Virus record (IMG/VR): IMGVR_UViG_3300042896_000430 | Span: 1 to 36,709 of that record | Source: a virus | DNA: 36,709 nucleotides | Strand: one strand, 5' to 3' | In this document: positions 31,404 through 36,309 of the stretch, piece after piece | Numbering within the stretch: the first letter of the stretch is position 1 | Layout: every line of letters begins with the position of its first letter | Position numbers and translations under genes: made by a program | Notes under the pieces: generated by a model | What the model was told of the DNA's origin: nothing | Databases searched by the model: none | Seen by the model: the letters and a program-made list of their open reading frames with translations, nothing else

Positions 31404-32219
31404 ATGAAAATACCTCGCATCAAGTTATCACATGAAGTACCATTAGCAGTACTATCTGTATCAAAAACATTTAATGATTACGATTATTGTCTACCTCATT
31501 TATTAGACAAAGAATATGACTATTTCGCATATTTTGAAGAAGCTAAAAAAGAAGGTCGATATATCATTATGGACAATAGTTTACATGAACTAGGTCATGC
31601 TTATGATACTGATCGTTTATTACATTGGGTAAATTATTTTAAACCAAATGAATTCATTGTCCCTGATGTATGGCAGGATATGGAAGGTTCTATTAATAAC
31701 GCGGCTGAATGGGCTCATATTGAATTACCTGAAGAAACATTAAAAGTAGCAGTTGTACAAGCAACTTGTATTGAAGATGCTGCTGAATGCTATATGAAGT
31801 ATAAAGCATTAGGTTATAAGAAAATAGCATTCTCATATGGTGCTGAATATTATAAAGAACATTTTAATCATCCTAACCCAGCTATATCAACTGCTATGGG
31901 TAGAGTAAATGTTATTGGTACATTATACAAAGCAGAAGTAATTGAGGATAGTGATAGAATCCATTTACTTGGATGTGCTGTACCACAAGAGTTTATTCAC
32001 TATAAAGATATGAAGTTTATTGAAACAATAGATACTTCAAATCCAATTATGGCTGCTATGGAAGGTACATTATATACTAATCAAGGTTTAGATGAAAAAC
32101 CAATCACTAAAATTGATCATGTAATGAATAAACATGTAGAGTTAATTGATTGGGTTAAAATTCATACTAATGTAAATAAATTTAGAGAAATTAATCAGTT
32201 ACAAACAATTTTAAATTAA
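31404..32219 (+). CDS. DpdA-like guanine transglycosylase (DNA 7-deazaguanine insertion)
   Basis: The 271-residue protein reads as a TIM-barrel related to tRNA-guanine transglycosylase, of the short phage DpdA type. The candidate first catalytic aspartate is Asp57 in YIIMDNSLHELG, at the position of the DSGGF motif. Candidate nucleophile positions are Asp88/Asp92 in FIVPDVWQD. Later barrel strands are VAVVQAT, KIAFSYGAEYY, VNVIGTLYK and RIHLLGCAVPQEF, the last like the LG(V/I)G strand of the family. Such enzymes swap guanine in DNA for a 7-deazaguanine base. QueC-, QueD- and QueE-like genes follow within 4 kb, which strongly supports the call. The DpdA subfamily is not resolved. A related tRNA enzyme is the main alternative. 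Confidence 0.7.
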   Translation: MKIPRIKLSHEVPLAVLSVSKTFNDYDYCLPHLLDKEYDYFAYFEEAKKEGRYIIMDNSLHELGHAYDTDRLLHWVNYFKPNEFIVPDVWQDMEGSINNAAEWAHIELPEETLKVAVVQATCIEDAAECYMKYKALGYKKIAFSYGAEYYKEHFNHPNPAISTAMGRVNVIGTLYKAEVIEDSDRIHLLGCAVPQEFIHYKDMKFIETIDTSNPIMAAMEGTLYTNQGLDEKPITKIDHVMNKHVELIDWVKIHTNVNKFREINQLQTILN

Positions 32220-32227
32220 TAAGAGTT

Positions 32228-32380
32228 ATGGAAGAAACATGGTTTGGAGGTATTTCTCCCGTACAAGGAAATTTATATGAACAAGAATGGGATGAGGCTA
32301 TGAAAAAGCTAAAGAAAGGTCGTCTTAGATTGTCAAATGAAGATACAGATATTATATTACAAATAGCAAATAAATTATGA
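32228..32380 (+). CDS. 50-residue protein coupled to queC, unknown
   Basis: A 50-codon frame starts in the GAGTTATG context 8 bases after the DpdA-like gene and overlaps queC by four bases (ATGA). The product starts MEETWFGGISPVQGNLYEQE and has a basic helix KKLKKGRLRLSNED near the middle. Tight coupling makes it likely real and expressed with queC. No function is recognised. Confidence 0.7.
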   Translation: MEETWFGGISPVQGNLYEQEWDEAMKKLKKGRLRLSNEDTDIILQIANKL

Positions 32381-33237
32381 AGAAACAAGCAGTGTTATCA
32401 CTAAGTGGAGGAATGGATAGTTCCACTCTATTGCTTCATCTACTCGCCAATGGCTATGAAGTTACAGCATTATCATTCGATTATGGTCAAAAACATAATG
32501 TAGAATTAGAACGTGCTAAAGATTTAGTTAAGTATATTAATAATAATTCAAATAGATTTTTCTATAGTTCCGAATTAGCAGATGATAAAGTTCTTGAAAT
32601 TTATCCATTAGTTAAACATCAAGTAATTGAGCTTAAAGGACTATCTGAATTACTAAATTCAGCATTAGTAACTGGTGGGGAAGAAGTACCTGAAGGACAC
32701 TATGCTGAAGAAAATATGAAAGCAACAGTAGTTCCAAATCGTAATAAGATTTTTAGTTCTATTATTCAAGCAGTTGCATTATCAATCGCTGAACAAAAAG
32801 ATACTGAATGTGCTATCGCAATGGGTATTCATGCAGGTGACCATGCTATCTATCCTGATTGTCGTCAAGAATTTAGAGACATTGATTTTGAAGCATTTAA
32901 AGCAGGCAATTGGGGAGCTGAAAAAGTATATCATTATACACCTTATTTACATACTGATAAGTTTGGTATTTTAGAGGATGGTGATAATTGCTTAGGAAAG
33001 CTTGGCCTAGACTTTAATGAAGTATATTATCGCACTAATACAAGTTACAAACCAATTAAATACCAAGATGTATGGTACTCAGATTACAAATCAGCATCAT
33101 CAGTAGAACGAGTTGAAGCATTTATGAAACTTGGAAAACCAGATCCAGTTGAATATGCTGACCTAGAATTAGGTCCTGTAAGTTGGGAAACAGTAGTAGA
33201 ACATGTAAAAACAATTTTAAATAATCATAATAAATAA
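32377..33237 (+). CDS. QueC-like 7-deazaguanine enzyme lacking the zinc cysteines
   Basis: The 286-residue protein has the QueC PP-loop SGGMDSS (residues 10-16) and family motifs LSFDYGQKHNVELERA, VVPNRNKIFSSI and HAIYPDCRQEF. QueC converts 7-carboxy-7-deazaguanine to preQ0 with ATP and ammonia. Canonical QueC ends with a four-cysteine zinc site (TCY...CGxCxxC). Here the aligned region (residues 219-245, TNTSYKPIKYQDVWYSDYK, then SASSVERVEAF) contains no cysteine. The enzyme may be zinc-free, or may have changed chemistry (for example acting on the carboxyl group without nitrile formation). It overlaps the 50-residue gene by four bases. Family membership firm, exact product uncertain. Confidence 0.85.
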   Translation: MKKQAVLSLSGGMDSSTLLLHLLANGYEVTALSFDYGQKHNVELERAKDLVKYINNNSNRFFYSSELADDKVLEIYPLVKHQVIELKGLSELLNSALVTGGEEVPEGHYAEENMKATVVPNRNKIFSSIIQAVALSIAEQKDTECAIAMGIHAGDHAIYPDCRQEFRDIDFEAFKAGNWGAEKVYHYTPYLHTDKFGILEDGDNCLGKLGLDFNEVYYRTNTSYKPIKYQDVWYSDYKSASSVERVEAFMKLGKPDPVEYADLELGPVSWETVVEHVKTILNNHNK

Positions 33238-33410: not shown

Positions 33411-33442
33411 ATTGGTGTAATCCTTGTTTTTTAGTATATTTA
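33411..33442 (+). promoter_or_regulatory. Bacteroidota-type promoter for the GIY-YIG gene
   Basis: ATTG (33411-33414), exactly 20 bases, TATATTTA (33435-33442); the ATG at 33448 follows after 5 bases. The -33 box has one mismatch to TTTG. TATTTATTA here also resembles the late motif. Confidence 0.5.
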
Positions 33443-33447
33443 TTAAT

Positions 33448-34107
33448 ATGGAATACACTAAAATATACTTACTAACAAATTGTTATGGGGATCCTAATAA
33501 AGTTTATATAGGTAAAACTAAAAATAATAGAAAAAAAGATCATAAAAGAATATTTGGTTTTCAAATAGAATATTCTGAAATTGATAAAATAAACTCACTA
33601 TGTAAAAAAGATTGGGAACCATTAGAATCATATTGGATAGAACAATTTAAAGTTTGGGGTTTTGATGTTTTAAATAAAAATAAAGGTGGTGGAGGACCTA
33701 TTACTCATTCTGAAGAAACAAAACAAAAGATGAGTAAAAATAGAAAAGGTAAACCAAGTCCTTTAAAAAACAGAAAAAGACCAGAAATAAGTAAAAAACT
33801 AAAAGGAAGAAAAAGTTATATGACTCCTAAAGTAGCTTTAAAAATTAGTAAGATGTTAAAAGGAAAATCATTCACTGAAGACCATAAACATAAAATCAAA
33901 CAAACTCGAGGGTTTTTAAAAAACAGAAAAAGTACATGGCTTAATACTCCAATACTTCAATTTGATTTAAAAGGTAATTTTATCAAAGAATGGACATCCC
34001 AAACTGAAGCAACTAATTTTTTAAATAAAAATGGAGATGGAATTGGAGCATGTTGTAGGGGAAAACAAAAAAGTGCTTATGGATTTATTTGGAAATTTAA
34101 AAAATAA
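33448..34107 (+). CDS. GIY-YIG homing endonuclease with NUMOD domains
   Basis: The true start is taken as ATG 33448, since the upstream TTG (33424) lies in the promoter spacer. The 219-residue protein begins MEYTKIYLLTN...KVYIGKTKNN, a GIY-YIG core with the first motif as KIY and YIG at residues 20-22; Glu in PLESYWIEQF is the likely metal ligand. Two NUMOD3-type DNA-binding helices follow (SEETKQKMSKNRKGK and RPEISKKLKGRKS). A C-terminal NUMOD1/IENR1 domain reads ILQFDLKGNFIKEWTSQTEA...GFIWKF. It is a free-standing homing endonuclease lying between queC and the thioredoxin gene. It probably cuts phages that lack it at this place in the modification cluster. Confidence 0.88.
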   Translation: MEYTKIYLLTNCYGDPNKVYIGKTKNNRKKDHKRIFGFQIEYSEIDKINSLCKKDWEPLESYWIEQFKVWGFDVLNKNKGGGGPITHSEETKQKMSKNRKGKPSPLKNRKRPEISKKLKGRKSYMTPKVALKISKMLKGKSFTEDHKHKIKQTRGFLKNRKSTWLNTPILQFDLKGNFIKEWTSQTEATNFLNKNGDGIGACCRGKQKSAYGFIWKFKK

Positions 34108-34125: not shown

Positions 34126-34380
34126 ATGAAAGAAATTATGTATTACCACGCCGCATGGTGCAACCCATGCCAAACATTAGGTCCTACTATGGATGAAGTT
34201 GCTAGACAAATTCCTGTTCGTAAGCAAAATATTGACTATGTTGATCCTGCTATCCTAACTGAAGCTAAAGTTAAGAGTGTACCTACTGTTATATTAGTAG
34301 AAGATGGACAAGAGTTAAGACGTTTCGTAGGAGTGAAATCATATAATCAAATTATAGACTGGTTAAATTATGGGAACTAA
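34126..34380 (+). CDS. Thioredoxin-like protein with CNPC active site
   Basis: The 84-residue protein has the thioredoxin active site AAWCNPCQ (Cys12, Cys15) and the cis-proline segment VKSVPTVILVEDG. It ends RFVGVKSYNQIIDWLN, the usual last helix. It is close to T4 NrdC in size. Likely roles are reduction of the phage ribonucleotide reductase or support of the downstream enzymes. It overlaps queD by 11 bases, so the two are translated together. A second thioredoxin-like gene lies at 36302. Confidence 0.88.
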   Translation: MKEIMYYHAAWCNPCQTLGPTMDEVARQIPVRKQNIDYVDPAILTEAKVKSVPTVILVEDGQELRRFVGVKSYNQIIDWLNYGN

Positions 34381-34858
34381 AACAAGATATATATCAACTA
34401 AATTATTTGAAAACTACTCAGTAGCGATCAGACAATACAAAGCAGCTCACTCACACTGCCAGTTATTGCATGGTTATGCTTTAAAATTTAAAGTGTGGTT
34501 TGCATCTAACGAGCCTAACATTGATGAACAATTAGATGATATGAATTGGATTGTTGATTATGGTGGATTTAAAACTCCACCTCAAGGTAATGGCTTAAAG
34601 GATTGGATGAACCATATGTGGGATCATACAACATTAATTCAAGCTGATGATCCATATCGTGATTTGTTTGAACAAATGCAAATGGAAGGTATTTGTAAAG
34701 TGCATTTCCTTGAAAAAATGGGTGCTGAAAGTTGTGCTCGTTTAGTGTATGAATATTTTAATGAAGTATTATCTAAAACAGATGCTGGTCGTTGCAAATG
34801 CATTAAAGTAGAATGTTTTGAAAATGATAATAACAGCTCAATATATGAAGAAATATGA
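34370..34858 (+). CDS. queD: QueD-like 6-carboxytetrahydropterin synthase with altered zinc motif
   Basis: The 162-residue protein belongs to the 6-pyruvoyl/6-carboxytetrahydropterin synthase family. It has AAHSHCQLLHGYALKF with His27, catalytic-type Cys30 and His34, then MNWIVDYGGF, WMNHMWDHTTLI (Asp-His pair) and IKVECFENDNNSSIY with the substrate-binding glutamate. In the family the zinc site is His plus HxH in the sequence HGH; here the third ligand is Tyr36 (HGY). His29 might substitute. The enzyme makes the CPH4 intermediate from 7,8-dihydroneopterin triphosphate. It overlaps the thioredoxin gene by 11 bases and queE by four (ATGA), a tight queD-queE pair. Confidence 0.88.
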   Translation: MGTKTRYISTKLFENYSVAIRQYKAAHSHCQLLHGYALKFKVWFASNEPNIDEQLDDMNWIVDYGGFKTPPQGNGLKDWMNHMWDHTTLIQADDPYRDLFEQMQMEGICKVHFLEKMGAESCARLVYEYFNEVLSKTDAGRCKCIKVECFENDNNSSIYEEI

Positions 34859-35637
34859 AACCAGGTAGAATAGAAGATTATAATAAAAAATTACCTATTG
34901 TAGAGTTATATACAGCTGTACAATCTGAAGGTAGTAGAGCTGGAATGCCTACAGTAGTTATTAGAACCACAGGTTGTACTCATAGATGTTGGTTTGGAGA
35001 TGGCGGATGGTGTGATTCATGGTATACAAGTATTCATCCTGAGAAAGGAAAATATACATTTAATGATATTATAGCTATTTATGACAATAACCCATTTATT
35101 AGAGAAATGATGCTAACAGGTGGTTCACCTACAATGCATCCTGACCTAGTAAATGAATTAACTCATTTTGCAAATCAACGTGGCTTATTTATTACAATTG
35201 AAACAGAGGGCTCTCATTTTATCGAGACTGATTATCCTTTGGGTCTTATATCTCTTAGCCCTAAGTTCAGTAACAGTGTTCCTGCAATTGGGACTCTTAC
35301 TCCGCAAGGTAAAGTTGCTGATCAAAAGATGGTGGACCAACATAATAAACATCGTTTAGATAAAGAGACAATAAGAAAAACATTAGAGTACCATCATGAT
35401 TATCATTTCAAACCTGTTTGTAATCCTATCGAAATGCCTGAAGCATGGGCTGAGATTGAAGCATTTAGAGTTGAAATGGATATTCCAAAACGTAAGACTT
35501 GGTTAATGCCTCCTGGTGATACAAGAGATGAATTAATTCGAGTATATCCTATGGTAATGGATTTTTGTAGAGACAATGGTTATAATTTTACAGGTAGAGA
35601 GCACATTATAGCCTTTGATACGTTGAGAGGTGTTTGA
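34855..35637 (+). CDS. queE: QueE-like 7-carboxy-7-deazaguanine synthase (radical SAM)
   Basis: The 260-residue protein shows the QueE N-terminus LPIVELYTAVQSEGSRAGMPTVVIRTTGC. Its iron-sulfur cysteines are Cys41, Cys45 and Cys53 (GCTHRCWFGDGGWCDSWY), a C-x3-C-x7-C spacing instead of the usual C-x3-C-x2-C of radical SAM enzymes. LTGGSP replaces the common TGGEP SAM-binding motif, and ISLSPKFSNS matches the SxSPK strand of QueE. It converts CPH4 to 7-carboxy-7-deazaguanine. It is translationally coupled to queD. No folE is seen in this window, so dihydroneopterin triphosphate must come from the host or from a gene outside it. Confidence 0.88.
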   Translation: MKPGRIEDYNKKLPIVELYTAVQSEGSRAGMPTVVIRTTGCTHRCWFGDGGWCDSWYTSIHPEKGKYTFNDIIAIYDNNPFIREMMLTGGSPTMHPDLVNELTHFANQRGLFITIETEGSHFIETDYPLGLISLSPKFSNSVPAIGTLTPQGKVADQKMVDQHNKHRLDKETIRKTLEYHHDYHFKPVCNPIEMPEAWAEIEAFRVEMDIPKRKTWLMPPGDTRDELIRVYPMVMDFCRDNGYNFTGREHIIAFDTLRGV

Positions 35638-35688: not shown

Positions 35689-36309
35689 ATGTATAAACAA
35701 ATATGTAAAGAATGCTCAATAGATTTTAAATCTAAAGGACCAAATAAAATATTTTGTTCTAAAGAATGTAAAATTAAATTTAATAGTAAAACATATACTT
35801 ATACTGAATGTTCTAACTGTAAAAATCAAGTAAGATATTTTCCAAATAGCGCTCATAAACATAATAAAGATGTTTTTTGTTCAAACTTATGTCAAGGTGA
35901 ATGGAGAAAAGAAAATATGAAGGATGAAAATATTAAGTTGGCATCTAAAATGAGGGAGAGTTGGAGTGAAGAAAGTTGGAAAAAAAGTATAGAAACTAGG
36001 AAGAAAAATGGTAATATAATCACTAACCATGATTGGAAACAATATAAAAAGAAATGTGATTATTTAACTAGAAAAATAAGGTCAAAAATGCTTGAAAATT
36101 GGGATGGGTTTGATTATATTGATGGAGAATACATCAAAGATAATTTAAGTTTACACTTTACTCATATTAATTACCCAACATTAGATCATATTAAACCTAG
36201 AAGTATATGTTTTAAAGAAGGATTAACCCCTGAAGAAGCAACTAAACCTGAAAATTTAAAATGGACTAAAAGAGTAAATAATAGCTCTAAAAGTAATAAA
36301 TATGGATAA
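35689..36309 (+). CDS. HNH homing-type endonuclease with two zinc-finger modules
   Basis: The 206-residue protein opens with two treble-clef-like Cys4 modules: Cys6/Cys9/Cys23/Cys27 (CKEC...CSKEC) and Cys41/Cys44/Cys64/Cys68 (CSNC...CSNLC). A basic linker follows. The HNH core near the C-terminus is YPTLDHIKPRS (Asp166-His167) followed by ENLKWTKRVNNSSKSNK with the distal Asn residues. It is a free-standing phage HNH endonuclease, inserted between queE and the second thioredoxin. Its end overlaps the thioredoxin start by 8 bases. A late motif precedes it. Confidence 0.85.
   Translation: MYKQICKECSIDFKSKGPNKIFCSKECKIKFNSKTYTYTECSNCKNQVRYFPNSAHKHNKDVFCSNLCQGEWRKENMKDENIKLASKMRESWSEESWKKSIETRKKNGNIITNHDWKQYKKKCDYLTRKIRSKMLENWDGFDYIDGEYIKDNLSLHFTHINYPTLDHIKPRSICFKEGLTPEEATKPENLKWTKRVNNSSKSNKYG

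Follow-up and report, generated by a model that had tools for sequence, protein, structure and literature searches.

A phage QueC homologue without the four zinc cysteines as a predicted preQ0 synthase

A zinc motif of four cysteines, C(x)8CxxCxxC, is a hallmark of canonical QueC; according to a 2026 survey, the clusters that lack it are all ones with other functions (PMC13329287). By mutagenesis, the same 2026 study identified Y35, R99, Y131 and Y189 as residues that E. coli QueC requires for preQ0 formation (PMC13329287). The QueC fold is shared by Cap9 and QatC, which belong to defence operons and act on protein substrates, and QatC retains the zinc cysteines (PMC13279940). Among phages, the DNA of Campylobacter phage CP220 carries dADG (PMC8306585), and dPreQ0 has been reported in the DNA of Pseudomonas phage Iggy, as stated in the title of Olsen et al. 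2023, cited in PMC11008142.

Here we describe a viral contig of 36.7 kb (the window, i.e. the whole stretch of DNA that was analysed) encoding a QueC from which all four zinc cysteines are gone. We put the probability at roughly three in four that this protein is a genuine preQ0 synthase with no need for structural zinc, acting in a phage DNA-modification pathway. The following features of the window bear on the argument.

31404..32219, + strand: DpdA-type DNA guanine transglycosylase, 271 aa (homology to phage DpdA, TGT-fold model)
32377..33237, + strand: zinc-less QueC, 286 aa, predicted CDG-to-preQ0 synthase (ORF, Pfam, PHROG, fold match)
33031..33120, + strand: former zinc site, residues 219-248, TSY...SDYKSASSVER against TCY...CGxCxxCxxR (translation, alignments)
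33424-34107: NUMOD3-bearing likely homing endonuclease, between queC and the thioredoxin and queD genes
34126..34380, + strand: thioredoxin-like protein, gene adjoining zinc-less queC in 30 of 31 loci
34370..34858, + strand: QueD (CPH4 synthase) homologue (Pfam PTPS; PHROG 2389, QueD-like)
34855..35637, + strand: QueE (CDG synthase) homologue, radical SAM (Pfam Radical_SAM; PHROG 2076, QueE-like)
35689-36309: probable HNH protein after queE, no Pfam match

The zinc-less QueC and its former zinc site

The open reading frame at 32377-33237 matched the Pfam QueC family (PF06508) with 127 bits (E 9e-37; cut-off 22) and belongs to the QueC-like PHROG 1550. Its score against the NCBIfam QueC equivalog TIGR00364 was 120, and the cut-off of 150.3 was not reached; annotation based on such cut-offs will miss zinc-less QueC enzymes. 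Searching the PDB by sequence gave QueC and, weakly, argininosuccinate synthase, and nothing else.

The first-pass annotation had claimed that this enzyme lost all four zinc cysteines with its catalytic motifs intact, and both parts of the claim were confirmed. The segment 33031-33120 is in frame with the gene and encodes residues 219-248, RTNTSYKPIKYQDVWYSDYKSASSVERVEA, with zero cysteines. C188, C197, C200 and C203 of E. coli QueC align with S223, D236, S239 and S242, so the zinc motif is absent, and the only cysteines of the whole protein are C145, C162 (in the YPDC motif) and C205. Present are SGGMDS, FDYGQKHxxE, VPNRN, YPDCR and the tyrosine of TSY. In E. coli this tyrosine (Y189) directly follows the first zinc cysteine, and the change from TCY to TSY retains it; the equivalents of Y35, R99 and Y131 are likewise kept in the alignment. 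In a comparison of 76 sequences with and without the zinc site, S10, G11, G12, D14, S15, Y36, E43, P120, R122, N123, Y159, D161, K195 and Y224 were among the positions that never varied. The window protein therefore has in common with canonical QueC (that of E. coli, B. subtilis 3bl5 and Erwinia 2pg3) the fold, the SGGxDS, YxQxHxxE, VPxRN and YPDC motifs, the Lys165 and Tyr189 equivalents and linkage with queD, queE and folE, but differs from it in having S/D/S/S in place of the hallmark motif and in scoring under the NCBIfam cut-off. In two bacterial members, from a Thiotrichales isolate and a Caedibacter bin (L404, L405), the cysteine of YPDC is replaced too, giving YPDT or PDT.

An AlphaFold2 model built from a 76-row alignment had a mean pLDDT of 93.9, with values of 95-97 in the former zinc region. 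The closest solved structures were Cap9 (Z 18.9), QueC 3bl5 (Z 17.8), QueC 2pg3 (Z 17.0) and QatC, all within Z 17-19. The QueC fold is thus predicted to be kept without zinc, a prediction that says nothing on metal content. With four ligands lost and high model confidence where zinc would sit, the earlier suggestion of zinc-free folding gains support.

Phage relatives and gene neighbourhood

At least 313 relatives of the window QueC were found in a scan of IMG/VR, and zinc-site residues were taken from the 80 best of these. The set S/D/S/S occurs in all 80 except L081, a copy truncated by a stop codon within the former zinc site (SDY*SAASVER). These 80 share the motif TNTSYKP...SDYKSASSVER with small variations, and a further query yielded 26 more members of the zinc-less family. 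The serines at the former zinc positions are encoded by TCN and AGY codons alike, which indicates selection at the protein level (the codon count used a pattern demanding part of the motif; the unfiltered sets of relatives are the better evidence for invariance). Given the constant residues in the best relatives, bar the truncated copy, and the mixed serine codons, cysteine loss is a property of a stable family and reflects neither chance nor sequencing error. Flavobacterium phage immuto (62.5% identity) is the sole named phage among matches above 60% identity, and the family probably represents a widespread environmental phage group in which guanine is replaced by a 7-deazaguanine. A second, different QueC doing the work in the same phage was ruled out, as 49 of 50 phage records have a single QueC and the two genes of the remaining record, G033 (L118, G033:C1:74000-78000), are both zinc-less.

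In the window, the neighbouring protein encoded at 31404-32219 is 37.5% identical to the annotated DNA guanine transglycosylase of immuto and 35% identical to a CP220 protein. Its AlphaFold2 model (pLDDT 94.8) best matched TGT structures in the PDB, with DpdA 7ui4 also listed, and the TGT fold together with homology to annotated phage DpdA places it among DpdA proteins. The zinc motif of TGT is CxCxxC, and this protein is without it. Of the clade's loci, 31 had full flanks; queD was present in all 31, queE in 29, dpdA in 28 and folE in 27. The folE gene lies downstream in relatives, mostly 3.2-6.4 kb from the queC start; its lack in the window can be explained by the contig end, 4.3 kb from the queC start, and by the two homing-endonuclease-like genes that occupy part of this space. 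No QueF was found in the 36.7-kb window, and no CD-NTase or qat genes were seen around zinc-less queC in the window or in the 31 loci of relatives. At the level of sequence, then, family membership, loss of the ligands, retention of the catalytic residues and gene context are all in evidence.

Two other enzymes of the cluster have unusual motifs. Canonical QueD carries LHGH, and three zinc histidines are usual; in the relatives that were read, QueD has HSHC or THC followed by LHGY, so that one zinc histidine seemingly became tyrosine. The window QueE, 57% identical to that of Cysteiniphilum, has the cysteine spacing Cx3Cx7C (CTHRCWFGDGGWC), similar to the Cx3Cx8C of the Cysteiniphilum protein.

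QueF was found in 3 of 50 related phage records, most of which are fragments. Immuto and two metagenomic phages, all with zinc-less QueC, encode a bimodular QueF with equivalents of Cys190, Asp197, His229 and Glu230, within a cassette that also holds folE, dpdA and a formyltransferase gene; the cassette as a whole may yield a formylated preQ1 base. At L087:5840-10924, L119 and L120 the genes are folE, dpdA, the formyltransferase gene, a gene like the annotated thymidylate kinase of immuto, and queF. Weak QueF matches (16-19 bits) to proteins of 212-239 aa in seven phage records were read as FolE, which has the same T-fold, on the basis of length and position.

Recurrent loss of the zinc site and bacterial carriers

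A second clade of zinc-less phage QueC comprises Iggy, HD01, MMDA13, RHEph04, Pan1 and R5C. As in the window's family, the four cysteines are lost, the tyrosine is kept, and the gene is linked to queD, queE, folE and dpdA; unlike in that family, the replacement residues are of another kind (T[SA]Y...PPT...H[AS]xxLR) and the tree position is separate. R5C carries queF two genes downstream of its zinc-less queC. The annotated QueF-like gene of MMDA13 had no Pfam match and was dropped as evidence.

Trees were built with the zinc columns left out. The zinc-less clade of the window was single (96/96), with a zinc-bearing sister of 47% identity (L335), while zinc-bearing relatives, L140 among them, fell between members of the Iggy clade. 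The cysteines are also gone from a third, small group (L212 and L234). The starred branches require at least four changes of zinc state in the careful tree, and five in the quick one. On the view that the zinc site is ancestral and that these changes are losses, it would have been lost at least three times independently.

A scan of bacterial genomes found the window's zinc-less type of QueC in Facilibium subflavum, several Cysteiniphilum species, two Thiotrichales isolates, a Caedibacter bin and Legionella gresilensis. In Cysteiniphilum, Facilibium, the two Thiotrichales isolates and L. gresilensis it is the sole full-length QueC (119-127 bits), other PF06508 matches in these genomes scoring 27 bits or less. 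These genomes have QueF, QueA and TGT, apart from a fragmentary bin, G056, which gave no QueA match. On the Cysteiniphilum chromosome, zinc-less queC is divergent from queE-queD and stands between housekeeping genes, without DpdA; in one gammaproteobacterial bin, queF lies directly upstream of zinc-less queC. The combination of a sole zinc-less QueC with QueF, QueA and TGT implies that preQ0 is made in these free-living bacteria unless it is salvaged, and they appear to depend on zinc-less QueC for queuosine. Recurrent loss of the zinc site with a complete catalytic signature, together with this apparent bacterial dependence, points to a structural and dispensable role for the zinc, and makes zinc-less QueCs natural test proteins for that role. 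Among 11 genomes of the genus Legionella, eight had only zinc-type QueC, two only the zinc-less type and one (L424) both, its zinc copy being identified by score, and queF was present in all six Legionella genomes tested for it.

Metagenome bins L317, L318, L328, L331 and L334, with dpdA beside zinc-less queC, have the look of phage contigs and were not counted as bacteria. Bins named as Pelagibacter, Flavobacteriales or Woesearchaeota (L316, L318, L328, L331, L334) hold a phage-like zinc-less queC, most with dpdA, on what are probably phage contigs binned along.

Proposed function and alternative readings

In the proposed pathway, CDG would come from QueD and QueE together with FolE, whose gene follows queE in relatives. 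The zinc-less QueC, in which fixed S223/D236/S239/S242 replace the Cys4 zinc knuckle and the fold and ATP/CDG active site are predicted to be kept, would use ATP to activate CDG and, with ammonia, form the amide ADG, and a further activation step would lead to the nitrile preQ0. The adjacent DpdA would then exchange guanine in the phage DNA for this product, presumably as protection from restriction. From bacteria and phages that have only zinc-less QueC together with queF, we infer that the nitrile is formed. These bacteria might salvage preQ0 instead, and for phages such as Iggy it might be supplied by the host; host-derived or salvaged preQ0 remains a caveat on the bacterial, QueF-phage and Iggy lines, each taken alone. 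For the window itself QueF provides no argument, since none was found there and so few related records have one, and activity could differ among sub-lineages.

The first-pass annotation had also raised the prospect of new chemistry, in the form of a stop at the amide or removal of the carboxyl group of CDG. In the former case, the zinc-less enzyme of phages without QueF would release ADG, and DpdA would insert it to give dADG in DNA. Homology of the window's DpdA to a protein of CP220, whose DNA carries dADG (PMC8306585), and the lack of a visible QueF in most clade records speak for such a stop, but CP220, which thus encodes a DpdA homologue like that of the window, retains all four zinc cysteines in its QueC, and zinc loss is thus neither required for the amide nor a marker of it. 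As the residues needed for preQ0 formation are all kept, and as the zinc-less form is the sole QueC of bacteria with QueF, QueA and TGT, we regard the amide stop as unlikely. Phage MED16 was of no use for comparing zinc loss with dADG, as it encodes DpdA and no preQ0 synthesis genes (PMC8306585). Bacillus phage BSP7 and Weizmannia phage Youna2 (L085, L086) encode a weakly similar DpdA-like protein and a zinc-type QueC. The decarboxylase alternative takes up a phage CDG decarboxylase activity known as DpdL, to which the first-pass annotation had pointed, and would yield plain 7-deazaguanine. Decarboxylation would not need the ATP pyrophosphatase loop or the rest of the QueC catalytic signature, which are nevertheless invariant, and conservation of the ATP site speaks against simple decarboxylation; with bacterial zinc-less members sitting in preQ0/queuosine genomes as well, we give this reading hardly any weight. 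Neither form of new chemistry is supported, therefore, and the presence of queF with zinc-less queC in one bacterium and several phages, the dPreQ0 named in the title on Iggy, and the pairing of dADG with intact cysteines in CP220 all weigh against it.

Two further explanations concern the protein itself. The protein might still hold a structural metal by means of different ligands, such as D236 together with C205 or residues close by; D236 is invariant and C205 is kept in 80 of 82 phage members, but no Cys/His cluster substitutes for the zinc site and S/D/S/S holds throughout the phage and bacterial members, so a protein that is not metal-free seems quite improbable. A protein-modifying enzyme of the Cap9/QatC kind, repurposed by phages, would accord with Cap9 as the best structural match of the model, which is closely followed by QueC. 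The neighbours are queD, queE, folE, dpdA and ordinary phage genes, however, and not a CBASS or qat operon with a protein partner, and QatC keeps its zinc cysteines (PMC13279940); we consider this origin extremely improbable. A zinc-independent preQ0 synthase remains our preferred reading.

More speculatively, QueC may exist in zinc-bearing and zinc-free forms, much like the C+/C- pairs of ribosomal proteins, with the zinc-free form spreading between phages and bacteria (Legionella, Fastidiosibacteraceae), enabling preQ0 synthesis under zinc scarcity and allowing a Legionella with both forms to switch between them; we hold this extension to be doubtful, if conceivable. Among 11 genomes of the genus Legionella, eight had only zinc-type QueC, two only the zinc-less type and one (L424) both, its zinc copy being identified by score, and queF was present in all six Legionella genomes tested for it.
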